Of a DNA stretch of 64,000 nt, positions 3,512 to 23,087 are shown one piece after another. The position numbers and the translations under genes were made by a program. The notes under the pieces were generated by a model. The model did not search any database and had not been told where the DNA came from. It was given only the letters and a program-made list of their open reading frames with translations. The stretch is taken from positions 127,012-191,011 of the forward strand of contig KQ965733.1 in the NCBI GenBank assembly GCA_001574975.1, written 5' to 3'. Each line of letters starts with the position of its first letter. Position 1 is the first letter of the stretch. This DNA is from Gonapodya prolifera JEL478 (Eukaryota > Monoblepharomycota > Monoblepharidomycetes > Monoblepharidales > Gonapodyaceae).

Positions 3512-6217
3512 TTACACCCCCCTCGTCTCTCCTTTCTGCTCCACGATCACCGTCTCCTGACTCCAGCTCTCCCTGTTCACACTCCCCACCTTCCCGCTCC
3601 CGCTCCCGTTTCCGTTTCCGTCCCATCCCGATCCTGCTCCAGCTCCTGTTCCGCCACTATACAACGCCCCACCACTGAACAACGCGTCCCGACTATCGCC
3701 CCCCGCCGAAGGGTGGCTCCTCAATGACCCGGACGCCCCCCGCACATCGCGCCGATACGACAAGACGCTAGAGGTCACGGGGTAAGCCCGCGACTCGAGG
3801 CGGTGCGCGGGCTGCTTGAAGGAGGGGATGACGTCGGCGAGGCGGAGCGTGTCACTGGGTGGGTGGGGAGAGGGTGTTCAGTGTCGGAAAGGGCTGAGGC
3901 ACGAACGTGGTGTGGTAACTTACAGAGGTCTGCGAAAGGGCGGGGGTCAAGTCAGTGCCGACCGCGGACGTGCAAAGGAAAGAACCACTTACAATACGCC
4001 GTACGCTCCAGTATCAAGCTGCATGAAGGAACAAACATGAGTAAGCTGGTGTGAGCCTCCAATCATGCACGGGTGCGGTGTCTCTACCCCCACCCCAAGT
4101 TGCAACACCAGCTACTCACGTTTTGACCCAAGCCCCATCCATCCCTAAACACAGACCGCACAAGGACCATGTTTCCAGGGAACACCGAGATCTCGTCCTC
4201 GCTCATTGCATTGTACTGTAAGCAAGACGTGGGTTGTATGGGCAAAGGACGTGTTTAGGTCGGGGTGGGCAGTACCAGTGGCAGGAGAGGGAGGAAGGGC
4301 GATATGAGTTTCTTCAAACCGAACACAAAAGGCATCCATGCACGACGAACCTTGACCATAGCCACGAAGGGGTCGCCTTGGAACTCGACGTTGGGCTGGT
4401 CAAGAAGCCCCATGTGACCGGCGACGCGGACAAAGAACCACTGCAGCGGAAAGGGTGAGTGGTGAGAATTAGTCGGACGGTGGTGAGGTGGAGGTGGAGT
4501 ACTTACGTGGGGCTGCGAATTGGTGTAAATGTGATCGAACGGAAAGAGGATATGTTTGGTGAGCGTCGCGTCAAGCAACCATAGAACAAAAGCATATCAC
4601 AGCGGCACTACTCACAGTTACCACACCGCTTTGGACGCCCGACGTCGCACTGTACCCGCCCACAGACCCCGCGATAACGGCCGAGCCCACGCCCACGCCG
4701 GGCAGGGGTTGGCTGATGAGGTTTGGCGAGGCCGGCGCGAGGTTGGGCGTTGGTGGGAGGAACGGGCTGGCGGTTAAAGGCGCGGTGAGCACAAAGCAGA
4801 GCCAGAAGACGCGGTGGAATGGCGAGTGTACGAACTTGGTGGGAGCGGGGGAGCCCGGAGGTCCTGTCAGGGCGGGGGGGAGGGGAACGGGGTTTTCTTT
4901 GGGTTGGGAAGGGGAGCTTTTCGTGCGGACGTGTGCGAGGGTTATGTGGCGTCCTCCGCACACAGGGCTAATGGGAAGCAGGACCCACCTTTGACCGCGA
5001 CGACGGGCGAGCAGGCCCGCTCCGACGAGAATTGCGAGCAAGGCTGCACAGCCCGCCACACCACCGGCGATTGCCCCGATGGGAGGTGAGGACGACGAGT
5101 CTGTGGCGACCACCGGGGAGAGCGGGACGGATGTGGTGGTGGGAGTGGAGGCAGCGGAGGAACCGGAGGAACCGGAGGAACCGGGAGCAGAAGAGATGAC
5201 TGAGGTGAGTGTGACAACAGTGGTGAGGGCGGAAGTCGTTGCCACGGAAGAGTCGGAGAGTGTGGAGGTGACGCTGGATCCTGAAGCGGAAGGGTCAGCG
5301 GTGGAGGCGGCTGGGGGTGGGGCGGCTGACCCTGGGATTGGTGCCGCCGAGGTTGCCGGTGGAGGGGGTACAGCGGTTGGAGGGGGTGGGGCGGTGGATG
5401 GTGGTGGTGGGGTCGGCGGTGATGGGGTAGGAGATGGCGCCTGCGAGCTCTGTGAGCAGCACGCCGTGTTTGATTGGCAGACGGTTTGTCCCGCGGGGCA
5501 GGTGCAGGTTCCGGATGTGCAGACGAACGGCGGCGAGCATGCGGTTCCACCGACGTTGTTTGCGTTTGACACGCAGGTGTTTGAGCCGTAGCCGCCGCAG
5601 CAGAATTGTACGTTGTTCACTGTGCAGGGAGTGTAGGACGACGTGCATTCTGCGAAGGGGAATGAGTGGGCGAAGGGGGAGTGTAGGGCGATGTGCATTC
5701 CGTGAAGGGGAATGAGAGGGCAAAGGGGAGTAACAAGGCGTAAAAGTGTGGAAAGTGACCTCTAGAGAGGAGTTTCAGACTCACGGAAGACACACATCCC
5801 GCCCACGCAGTTATTGGATCCGCCATAAACTCTAGTGATCCCGCACGAGTTCCCGCACGACCCGCAGTTGGCCCACTGTGAGATGTAACAAAGCAAAAAG
5901 AGACAGGATTAAGATGTGTTCGAACTCGTGGACCGATGCAGTGGACGCGCAACGGAAACGTACCGTGTTGGACAAGTCCGTGCATTGTCCGGTGCAGTTT
6001 GCAGCCGTTCCGCCTCCGCAGCACGCGAAAGAGGCAGTGCAGGTTGCAGCGGAGGACTGGCGTGGGATGAGAGAGAGTGCCAAGAGGAGACCAATGGCTT
6101 CTGTGGGCGGGGAGTTGAGGAAGCAGGGAGATGGCAAGGGAGAGCGGAGAAGAGACGCTGATTGGACGGAAGCGCGCGACGAGAAGAAGCAGCCCACTGA
6201 CCGCGCAGATTTCGCAT
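3512..6217 (-). CDS. Cys-rich single-pass membrane protein with cytoplasmic SH3 domain
   Basis: Receptor-like surface protein; ligand unknown. Model on the minus strand: 16-base first exon (6202-6217), then 5964-6100, about 5784-5875, 4989-5649, about 4615-4776, 4507-4512, about 4357-4441, 4120-4215, 3993-4018, 3924-3929 and 3514-3854. The first join gives a signal peptide (MRNLREAIGLLLALSLIP). The ectodomain is Cys-rich with a WANCGSCGNSC motif, then a Ser/Pro/Thr stalk, then a membrane span (IAGGVAGCAALLAILVGAG) and a basic stop-transfer RRR. The cytoplasmic part has a Pro-rich linker and an SH3 domain: AMVKYNAMSEDEISVFPG, DGWGLGQN and GVLPLDTLR. The conserved SH3 proline is encoded by a 6-base microexon. 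A Gly/Ser-rich tail follows. Membrane proteins that end in an SH3 domain are known in fungi (Sho1 is one design), so a link to actin or MAP-kinase signalling is plausible, but that is inference. The two microexons need transcript proof. Confidence 0.8.
5628..5728. repeat. 50-base tandem duplication over a 3' splice site
   Basis: Two copies with a period of 50 bases (5628-5677 and 5678-5728). The first contains the acceptor and the start of the Cys-rich exon of the SH3-receptor gene (acceptor CT on the plus strand at 5650-5651). The second copy lies inside the intron; at the matching position the plus strand reads CC, so the AG is lost. Confidence 0.8.
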
Positions 6218-7104: not shown

Positions 7105-9553
7105 ATGTCGAGCGAAAGCACCGTCATCGACCTGACTCCGCTCAAGGAGGACAATGACGAGGTATGCAAATGCCACACTCGTCGGTGTCGCCGACCGATC
7201 CCCCCAATCGTCGGCACTCACCCACTTTTCTCTTTCCTCGACACAAAGACCGTAGAGAAGAAGCGCTCCACACTCCGATGGACCGATCTGACGTACACAG
7301 TCACCGATAAAACAGGATTGGAAAAGTCGATCCTCCACAGTGTTTCCGGAGTGGCACGGAGTGGTGAGCACTTTCTGAGATTAAATCGCACTTCCTGGCA
7401 TCCAATCGTTGTGTGAATAGGTGAAATGATTGCACTCATGGGCGGATCTGGGTCGGGGGTAAGTCCGCGCAGGTACTTGGTACTTCATTCCCGCGCCTTT
7501 CTCATTTTCCTTTTACTTCAGAAAACAACGCTCCTCAACATCTTGAGCGGTCGTTTTGCCGAGGGCGCTCTGGACGGAGAAATTCTTTTCAATTCGAAGA
7601 AGAGGGATCACAAACAATGGCCGTGGCTGTACGGTTTCGTCGAGCAATTGGATTGCTTCTTTGGAGACCTCACCGTCGCAGAGACGCTCGAGTACAGCGC
7701 CAGCTTCAAGATCAAGGACGCATCGCCGGCGGAGAGGAGGAAACGAGTGGACGATGTCATGCAGCAGGTACGCGCGTGTCTCTGAGCTTTGACTGCGTCA
7801 CGGTCTCATCTGCTTCGACAGCTTGGCTTGACCGTCTGCAAAGACGTCATCATTGGCAACCCTGAACGATTCACAAAGGGTATCTCCACCGGACAGAAGA
7901 AGCGTCTCGCCATCGCAGTGTCGATGCTCAACAACCCTGAAATACTCTTCCTCGACGAGGTATGTCGAGACTCGAAACAACTTATTCACCGCCTCCTCCT
8001 CTAATCTCGACTGCCACATCTAGCCCACCTCCGGTCTCGACAGTTTCACCGCCATGAACACCGTCCAATACCTGCGCGACATCACTTCCCGCGAGGGTAA
8101 AATCTGCATCATGTCGATCCACCAACCGCGCGAAAACATTCTCGAGCTCTTCGACAAGATCATCATCCTCTCGCAGGGCCACGTCGTGTTCGCCGGAACC
8201 GTCGGCGCCGCGCAGGACCATTTCGCAAAGCTCGGGTTCCCCACGCCCGACAAGGTCAACCCCTCGGACTACTGGCTCGACATTTGCACGCCCGACCCGC
8301 GAACCCCCGAGCTCGAGAAGGAAAGCGCGGAGAGGATCGAGAAGTTTGCGGCGGCGTGGCATGACAGTGATGGGAAGAAGGGCTTGTCGCGAATGGGTGG
8401 GTTGTTGGCTGTTGCTTGTGAGAGTTTTGCTGGTGTGGTGTGCTTATGACGTCGCACCCTCGCATGATAGCGACGAGAGCGTCCATGATCAAGAACGTGA
8501 CGGACGACCTTGAAACATCACTGGCGCTTAACGCCTTTGCCGAGTATCTTGTTCTCCTGAGACTTTCGTGGCTACTGTTGATTCGGGACAAACTTCTCAT
8601 CGGGGTGCGAGGTAAGCTATCGTCTGAGTAAGTCTTCAACCTTTGCATCGTTCACTGATACAATACCTGATGTCAGTTAATGGTGCCGTATCTACCATTC
8701 TCGTGTTTTCTGTTATCTTTTGGAGACTGGAAACTGAAAAGCTTAATGGGATTACAAACTTGCAAGTGTCTGAAAGGCATCTTACTTCTACTCCGGTGAT
8801 CAAACTCTGCTCCTTGTCCTTTCTTCACTCCCAAACAGCTTCGGGTTCATGTTCTTCTACCTGTGCGGTCTCTCCTTCATCTCAGCAACCGTTCCTATTC
8901 CCGTTTTTCTCGAGAACCGCCTTACCATTAAACGAGAGCGCGCGGCGTTCATGTACAGGGCTTCGACCATGTTTTTTGCCAGGTTCACAGTGTGGGGTAT
9001 CTTCCTCGGTCTCTTCTCTGTGATTGACGGACTCGTCTACTGGGGCACAGTGGGAGTCCAGAACCCTGGTCATTTCATCCTCGCTGGAATGCAATTTGCG
9101 TAAGTTCGCTTTCGTTCATAGAAATAAAACGGTACGGTGAAGCTCACTTCGCCTCCTTTTTACAGAATGTACTTTGTCATTTGCGCTCTCGCAATGGGCG
9201 CTTTAATCCCGCACATGGGAGCCGCCGTCATCGTCATGGCCGTCACCATGATTCTCCCCGCATCAATGTTCTCGGGTGCCTTCGACAGCGTCAACAAACT
9301 CATCCCGTGGACCAAGCTGCTGGATCCCGAGCAATACACGATGTGCATGATCGGGCAAGGTTGGTTCGGACCGGACTTTCCCCTCGCTGTGGAGCTTGTT
9401 CCTGGCGTCAATGCGAGGACAAATCCCGACGCTTGCTACATCAAAAGTTACTGGGGTAACTTTGGAATGGGTTTTGTTTTCTGGATCTTTGCACTTGCTT
9501 TCGGAGTTTGGGCGCTCCACATTGGTACAAGAACCAAGCACCGGTTGTCATAG
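7105..9553 (+). CDS. ABCG-family half-transporter
   Basis: ATP-driven membrane exporter of the ABCG (White/Adp1-like) type, with the nucleotide-binding domain first and six membrane spans after it; substrate unknown. Ten exons. Walker A (GGSGSGKTT) is split by the intron at 7459-7521; Walker B plus D-loop is LFLDEPTSGLD around 7945-8045, also split by an intron; the H-loop is IMSIHQPR near 8110. The ABC signature reads ISTGQKKRL rather than the usual SGGE/QRKR, so its second residue is T. The membrane half (about 8560-9550) runs from LRLSWLLLIRDK to a C-terminus ending in RTKHRLS. One intron (8762-8838) is best read as GC-AG with donor GCAAGT, because only that join keeps ITNFFGFMFFYL in frame. 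The exon join near 8400-8470 is the least certain. Length, about 640 residues, is normal for a half-transporter, which would act as a dimer. Confidence 0.9.
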
Positions 9554-21316: not shown

Positions 21317-23087
21317 CTATCGCTGCAACATCCAGTGCCTTCCATCCCACCGCCATCGGCCATCAGGAGTTGTCAGTGGTGGGATCTCCTCTGCGCCGTA
21401 AGCTGACGCGTAAACAGTGTCGATTTCGTCGGCGGATCCCGCCATACGGCGGCGCTCCTCAATGTATACCCTTTCTGGTGGGTTACGAGGAGGGTCCAAA
21501 TCATGGGAGGGAGGCAGTGTTGGAGGATCCCGCCCGACCATCACTCCGTTCGCAGCACTCGGAGGAGGTCGCCGCACTCCTGATGTTTGCATAGGCATCC
21601 GGACTCGACGAACCATGTGGGATCCATCCACATCGTAGGGAACGTATATTGTCCTGCCGTCACCTCCAATTCGGTAAGAGTGCCCGTTATCTCCGCGAAC
21701 ATTGTCTTGCACTCCCAGAGGACCAGATGACGGTCCGGCACCATATCCTGAACCAATGCTGGGATACATCTCATGCATTCCATCAGTCTGATAAGATTGT
21801 TCCCGATAAAGCGGGGCATATGATTGTATCCGTCCATGATCACCCGTGCGCGGATGTTGTTGAAAGAGCATCGTCGCTTTAAGACCTAGCCCCGCTGGTC
21901 CTCCACTGGTCTCGTATTCAGGATAGTCGTACAGTTCCCGGGCATCCTCACCCACCCAAGAGTCCGAATCATTTGTCCGTCGATCAAATGACCACGACGG
22001 CGTGGCGGGCATAACCCCGCTACTAGCCGGTGGAGAGGGTGGTATCTTTCCGTTGCCCGAAAACTCAGCATATGTGAGTAGAGCACCGTTGGCCTTTGGA
22101 ACATCGCCATCCGCCAAAATAGCAATTGGCCGTGTCCCATCTTTGGAGGCCGCTCGCTTAGCCGGAGTTGCTTCCTCACCCGGGATCGTGTCGGGAATGA
22201 AGGTGACCTCTGGAACCGAAGATTTCCGTTGAACTTCTATCAATCTTCGGAGAGGGGAAGGTTTTATTTCTTGACTGAAACCCTTCGCAACTTCGGGAAC
22301 ATCATGCGGTCTCGGTAATGTCGAAGATGGAGACTTTGGCCTGCGGTCGTCCCCAAAAGGTGACCGTGCTCCATGCCAGAAGTCCATCAGGTCGGGTGCA
22401 GATGGCTTCGTTGTGTGCAACGTGATGGTGGGTAGTTGAGCGGGGCCGACTTTTCGGAAAATCCCAATTCCGCGGACCCATGTGTAGAAAAGTACAATGA
22501 CGAGAAGTAGGAGGATGCCAGCTTATTTGACAGAGGAAACATTATTGATTGGTAAATCCGTGGTAACACGCTCAAGACTCACTGAGGACTGGGAAAACAA
22601 AAACCCAGACGGGCAATGTCGTACGTGTATTTGGCAGCGAGCAAAACCCACTGTAACAGTACGTATTTGAGACGCACTGAGAGTTTGTCAGGCAAGGAGA
22701 GTCAACAGATCCCAGGGCGACGCAGGTTGCCGAAAGCTCGTCACAGTAGGATGACCGGTCAAATGTTCCGTCTTGCCGTGCACGAACACAGTCCTCATCC
22801 AGAGTACATGCAAGCCCGATAGAAGAGCTATCCGAATCGGAAATCACACCAGGAACCGCAGTCCTGTTTACAATCCCAGACGACGATTGTCGGGATAATA
22901 AGTGAGGACTAAAAGCGCTCTCCGATGGAGGATGTCGTCGGTGACCCTCTGCGGTTGCCACCGAAATACGACCTGAACTGGTGAGGAGGAGCCCTCCAAG
23001 CCAAAGGTCCCTTCTTCGTCTCGCTCCTAACGCATATTCCCTCGTTTCTAGTCTTTCCTTTGCGTTAAGACCTCCCCTTCGTCGCAT
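21317..23087 (-). CDS. Cys-rich single-pass membrane protein, unknown function
   Basis: Two exons join across a short intron at about 22520-22582. The N-terminus has a long basic stretch before a hydrophobic segment (RRRRDLWLGGLLL), read as a signal peptide with an extended n-region. The ectodomain carries about ten cysteines in a compact module (CTLDEDCVRARQDG, SSYCDELSATCVALG, CLTNSQCVSNTYCYSGFC) resembling small disulfide-knot domains of surface proteins. The membrane span is created across the intron: PVWVFVFPVL joined to TGILLLLVIVLFYTWV. The cytoplasmic tail of about 370 residues is disordered and rich in Pro, Ser, Arg and Tyr, ending in RWRWDGRHWMLQR. I recognise no family. It sits 130 bases from the glucosidase start and 80 bases from the end of the GatB gene. 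Confidence 0.75.

Follow-up and report, generated by a model that had tools for sequence, protein, structure and literature searches.

Six bases, ACCTCT, lie between two short introns near the end of a minus-strand gene of Gonapodya prolifera JEL478, and the locus raises the question of whether so small a segment is an exon and, if it is, whether its inclusion is routine or serves as a switch. The window, the whole stretch of DNA that was analysed (64 kb), reads CGCAG/ACCTCT/GTAAGT on the minus strand at 3934-3918 (slashes mark splice junctions). The upstream intron (intron A, 3992-3930, 63 bases) opens with the donor GTATT/GTAAGT, and the downstream intron (intron B, 3923-3855, 69 bases) closes with the acceptor CCCAG/TGACACG. 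Joining 4018-3993, ACCTCT (3929-3924) and 3854-3512 gives LDTGAYGVLPLDTLRLADV, which is open until the stop codon at 3514-3512. With ACCTCT included the translation is YGVLPLDTLRLADV, reading YGVLPLDTLR and open to this stop; with ACCTCT skipped it reads YGVFDTLR and the frame is likewise open to the same codon, since six is divisible by three. Retention of either intron gives in-frame stops. A preliminary description of this DNA had placed the hexamer between two introns, one of 63 and one of 69 bases, each with a good donor and acceptor, and had reported both readings as in frame; its coordinates, lengths and readings are all correct, and both reading frames are borne out by the spliced translations. 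By a coding microexon we mean an exon of at most 15 bases between two spliceosomal introns, conserved in place and coding in relatives; here the exon has six bases, the flanking introns (63 and 69 bases) are of the GT-AG type, and ten paralogues have an in-frame six-base exon. The window gene is laid out as follows.

3512..3854, minus strand: last coding exon, stop codon included, with the SH3 domain end (DTLRLADV) and the tail, from the spliced reading
3855..3923, minus strand: intron B, 69 bases, phase 2, commoner in the family than intron A, from splice sites and family alignment
3924..3929, minus strand: predicted six-base microexon ACCTCT, giving the end of a Leu codon, Pro and the start of a Leu codon in G-V-L-P-L; shared, in position and phase, by 10 paralogues
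3930..3992, minus strand: intron A, 63 bases, phase 2, found in 16 of 62 aligned family rows
3993..4018, minus strand: 26-base exon, LDTGAYGV plus two bases; length 26 in 16 of 16 rows with intron A
4019..4119, minus strand: intron, 101 bases, phase 0, preceding the 26-base exon
4120..4215, minus strand: exon, 96 bases, SH3 domain start (YNAMSEDE to GQN)
4216..4350, minus strand: intron, 135 bases
4351..4440, minus strand: exon, 90 bases, WFFVRVAG to FVAMVK; also 90 bases in the paralogue L041
4441..4506, minus strand: intron, 66 bases
4507..4512, minus strand: predicted second six-base microexon CCCCAC (Pro-His); CCTCAC there in L041 and GCGCAC in L040
4513..4615, minus strand: intron, 103 bases, donor ACT/GTGAGT
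4616..6130, minus strand: upstream portion of the same gene, limits approximate, translation judged by eye

Three exons of fewer than 30 bases (two of six bases and one of 26) thus occur in the last part of the gene, and both the second six-base exon and the 26-base exon (4018-3993) were absent from the preliminary description. Judged by eye, the translation of 4616..6130 contains a likely signal peptide, a Cys-rich part, a Pro/Ser-rich stalk and a hydrophobic segment, from which a membrane receptor is a plausible product; a Pfam search of 5000-5761, within this upstream part, matched no family. An ABC transporter gene adjoins on the plus strand (7417-8449; ABC_tran and ABC2_membrane_7 matches). 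The minus-strand gene at 340-2760 presumably resembles sphingosine-1-phosphate lyase, and a Pfam search of the reading at 340-882 matched nothing.

The fungus's own genome (47.6 Mb, 207 contigs) contains a chitin synthase match (PF03142, 590.6 bits) and the flagellar-transport protein IFT57, a pair that suggests a flagellated (zoosporic) fungus; PF03142 also gives hits in 4 bacterial control genomes, so the weight lies on how long and strong the match is. A search of this genome with 60 residues of the window gene's SH3 domain yielded at least 149 matches, a large expansion of SH3 proteins. Of these places 72 were read (L039-L068, L069, L070, L086, L087 and 38 short stretches). The places were read with a purpose-written, intron-aware aligner whose splice consensus was set by the author and whose query or profile includes the window gene. 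Both introns, with an in-frame six-base exon between them at the same place and phase, were found in 11 of the 72 places, the window gene counted, a share that is overstated because the batches making up the 38 stretches were mostly picked for matches ending before the proline; among the 30 best matches the six-base exon is present in four, again including the window gene. Intron B occurs without intron A in 37 places, intron A without intron B in four, and neither in ten, two of which (L063 and L097) are gapped in the alignment at this spot. The remainder comprises one odd case (L093), one decayed place (L110) and eight in the class 'unresolved'. L112 (intron B only) and L110 (decayed) were assigned by hand, as were the eight unresolved stretches (L092, L102, L116, L117, L119, L120, L122 and L124), and the 62 aligned rows used below omit these ten places.

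The hexamer itself varies among the eleven genes: ACCTCT in the window gene and L041, CCCTCT in L053, CCCACT in L067, TCCTGT in L089 and L091, and CCCTGT in L090, L096, L100, L105 and L109. The products read GVLPLD, GMFPLD, GIFPLD or GAFPVD, all of the form L/F-P-L/V. In these genes intron A measures 63-112 bases and intron B 60-74 bases; across the family the modelled introns have a median of 71 bases (n = 144, range 42-241). Strong splice sites flank the exon in most of the eleven, the window gene among them; L067 has a weak acceptor (AAG; score -2.31) and L089 a weak upstream donor (GTTAGT; 0.67). L093 (C91:114650-115110) does not follow the pattern: an exon of six bases would put the sequence out of frame there, and only one of four bases, CCCA, followed by a poor donor, keeps it open, perhaps because of damage to the gene or a shift of its donor. 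Its columns in the 62-row alignment were adjusted manually, the aligner itself having located the proline and intron A there. L110 has lost good splice sites. In L094, L095, L103 and L123, which have intron A without intron B, the six bases are joined to the downstream exon; L123 carries a stop within the domain. A search of viral contigs for relatives of the family confirmed none, and the accessible parts of the literature on chytrid microexons and chytrid transmembrane SH3 domain proteins contained nothing on this SH3 family.

Both fixed residues of the G-x-x-P core of SH3 domains, G and P, occur in each of the 62 aligned rows, and the window gene has this core only when the microexon is included. 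Against Pfam, the spliced protein with the microexon scores 25.6 bits for SH3_9 (E 1.1e-5) and 21.0 bits for SH3_1 (E 2.5e-4), each below its curated cut-off (30 and 22.9, respectively). The best match among sequences of solved structures is nebulette (E 9.8e-5), with other solved SH3 domains at higher E. The microexon proline falls on the P of nebulette GMLPANY and, in the other of the two top-scoring alignments to solved structures, on the P of GIFPSDY. These alignments and the 62 rows support the preliminary claim that ACCTCT supplies the conserved SH3 proline. On sequence grounds the product carries a putative SH3 domain, which would have the SH3 fold and bind proline-rich ligands.

Two other ways of splicing this region can be judged by the same comparisons. 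The first would remove a single 138-base intron (3992-3855) whole, making the hexamer intronic noise and the product YGVFDTLR. The frame is indeed open, and the Pfam scores without ACCTCT (SH3_9 23.3 bits, SH3_1 19.8, both below the cut-offs) are lower by just 1.2 to 2.3 bits; however, such splicing would delete a residue found in all 62 aligned rows and would leave the same exon in ten paralogues unaccounted for, which makes it extremely improbable. The second would join 3993 to an alternative acceptor, CCTCAG, within intron B (exon from about 3893), giving GVFPFRH followed by a stop and hence a truncated SH3 protein. This version, scored as a peptide derived by hand from the sequence, has a canonical GVFP and the highest Pfam scores of the three (SH3_9 28.2 bits, SH3_1 24.8), but it loses the D-x-L strand and the tail, which the aligned paralogues keep, and by eye L041 has no such acceptor at that place. 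The chance that this acceptor is the one used is close to negligible.

That the six bases are code rather than a chance match follows several lines. All 62 aligned family rows encode the proline. With a profile built only from relatives lacking intron A, 16 of the 4096 possible hexamers score at least as well as that of the window gene; across the 12 genes so scored, L093 among them, 8 to 40 of 4096 do as well as the gene's own. The nearest paralogue, L041, reads TTTCAG/ACCTCT/GTAAGT at the homologous place, and nine further paralogues have an in-frame six-base exon found by the aligner with no hand edits. Counting both strands, the 64-kb window contains six matches to the pattern YAG-N6-GTRAGT, of which two fall within the window gene, and simple arithmetic from this density predicts a chance occurrence in well under 1% of 138-base stretches. 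The other occurrences have six-base segments starting at 22588, 31716, 38936 and 58918. No internal microexon candidate was found in 79 introns of relatives with intron B only, a weak control because just nine of the 79 are long enough (at least 92 bases) under its rule. Genome-wide, CGCAG-N(2-30)-GTAAGT shows no excess (431 sites vs 732 in the reversed control), with five of spacing 6 among the matches listed, so that the six-base spacing is not enriched as such.

Comparison with L041 separates the exon from its surroundings. In the core, 44 of 51 residues are identical, and over 99 codons dS is about 1.08 and dN about 0.109. With 300 shuffles each, intron A aligns to its counterpart with a score of -1.5 (shuffle mean -5.6, maximum 4.0), intron B with 3.5 (mean -4.4, maximum 5.5; about 2.5 s.d. 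above the mean) and the 101-base intron with -9.0 (mean -9.1, maximum 5.0), the similarity of intron A and of the 101-base intron thus lying within the shuffle range. Since the core is conserved and the introns stand near shuffle level, the exon has been kept while the introns drift.

The exact string AGACCTCTGTAAGT is found at five places in the genome, namely the window gene, L041, C63 (L128), C8 (L127) and C122; with one mismatch allowed there are 32 places vs 39 for the reversed control. The C63 copy (L128, C63:61920-62380) was not counted as an extra case: both microexons are present and most of the SH3 exon is missing, and it seems to be an incomplete, nearly identical duplicate of the terminal part of the L041 gene. 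The C8 place was rejected as an SH3 relative on an unconvincing alignment (14.5). Outside the SH3 family, C8:669542 carries TGATGTAG/ACCTCT/GTAAGT at locus position ~244, with a possible donor upstream, AGCAGAC/GTAAGT, which may mark another microexon or be chance.

Further upstream in the window gene, the minus strand at 4517-4501 reads CGCAG/CCCCAC/GTAAGT, the six bases being 4512-4507. Joined in frame, CCCCAC gives VQSGVVT-PH-WF, just ahead of the WFF motif; L041 has CCTCAC and reads VQNSVVS-PH-WF, and L040 has GCGCAC (Ala-His). The His is present in 26 of 26 rows whose alignment reaches this position. CCCCAC is thus probably a second case of the ACCTCT kind in the same gene.

Two introns exactly six bases apart isolate the bases for the end of Leu, Pro and the start of Leu as an exon of their own, and ACCTCT is in our view a coding microexon present in all, or almost all, mature transcripts (probability about 0.88). 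The proline is encoded in 62 of 62 rows, in many of them by the same codons within ordinary exons, and inclusion is therefore most likely routine. Each of the short introns would be recognized as a unit and the two removed one after the other, so that the mature mRNA would carry the G-x-x-P motif completing the SH3 domain. Given how short the modelled family introns are, such recognition would be the natural route, and the special recognition of tiny exons seen in animals need not apply here.

The preliminary description had proposed that inclusion switches the ligand-binding surface on and off, the six bases being skipped under some conditions, with loss of L-P and an SH3 surface disabled or retuned. 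Skipping does leave the frame intact, and there is precedent in the available text of two reports. ITSN1 microexon 20 is a regulated, neuron-specific exon that likewise lies within an SH3 domain, SH3A, but it adds an optional five-residue insert in the n-Src loop, whereas ACCTCT encodes two residues of an invariant core (PMC3645719). The Xlr2 microexon of Trichoderma virens, also fungal and also required for a complete domain, has 20 bases and a glucose regulation shown by RNA, whereas the window exon is predicted from sequence (PMC11121469). A regulated exon would be expected to encode an optional residue; the proline is instead encoded in every aligned row and fused into ordinary exons in many relatives, the Pfam scores drop only slightly on skipping, and strong splice sites border the exon in the window gene and the majority of the eleven, a pattern that its routine use would produce. 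The proposed switch finds no support in these results, and regulated skipping is unlikely.

As to origin, the L-P-L codons close the upstream exon in relatives without intron A and open the downstream exon in relatives without intron B, and the microexon is therefore a by-product of introns lying six bases apart. Another intron, 26 exon bases upstream, accompanies intron A in 16 of 16 rows and is present in 5 of the remaining 46 (Fisher p 7.4e-11, for related genes that are not independent), and this constant pairing suggests shared descent. A tree built from only 48 columns implies four changes for intron A, and the AU test does not reject a topology that unites the 16 intron A rows (p-AU 0.152); the group labels of the tree still place L093 among the six-base exons, which leaves the intron A tests unchanged. 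Intron A may have arisen, once or more often, next to intron B, the commoner of the two, or both introns may be ancestral, with one lost in other lineages.

Exons of this size have been described before, as far as the available parts of the following reports go. P450 genes of Phanerochaete chrysosporium contain exons down to 6 bp (two amino acids), for which alternative splicing was proposed (PMC1184071). They resemble the present case in exon size, membership of a multigene family and a fungal host with small introns, and differ in gene family and fungal group; here, moreover, the comparison of relatives that have each intron with those that lack it speaks for simple inclusion. The RNA-confirmed one-base exon of Fusarium CYP621A is another tiny fungal exon in a conserved motif, inferred through relatives that include an intronless gene, but it has one base rather than six, its omission breaks the frame and it is backed by RNA reads (PMC12940212). 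For the one-base exon of Arabidopsis APC11, the introns were argued to be removed successively, each as a unit (PMC4674806). APC11 and the small plant microexons are conserved, coding, mostly included and fused into neighbouring exons in some relatives, and differ in being from plants, in resting on RNA evidence and, for most of the others, in size (PMC4674806, PMC8831610). The ACCTCT exon resembles the constitutive ones among the known cases. Six-base exons and one one-base exon are thus already known in fungi; what is new is a family whose intron-bearing and intron-lacking relatives can be compared in one genome.

It is very unlikely that the six-base exon has been retained in a fungal surface SH3 subfamily because its inclusion is jointly controlled; if it were, one splicing change could arm or disarm many receptors together. 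With routine inclusion as the preferred reading, the family constitutes a natural experiment, in which the same two codons stand alone where both introns are present and form part of a normal exon where intron A, intron B or both are missing. It allows tests of how splicing proceeds across six bases in a genome of short introns, how frequently exons of this size are overlooked and by what steps they appear and are lost. Gene prediction that discards tiny exons would leave a damaged SH3 core in at least 11 proteins.
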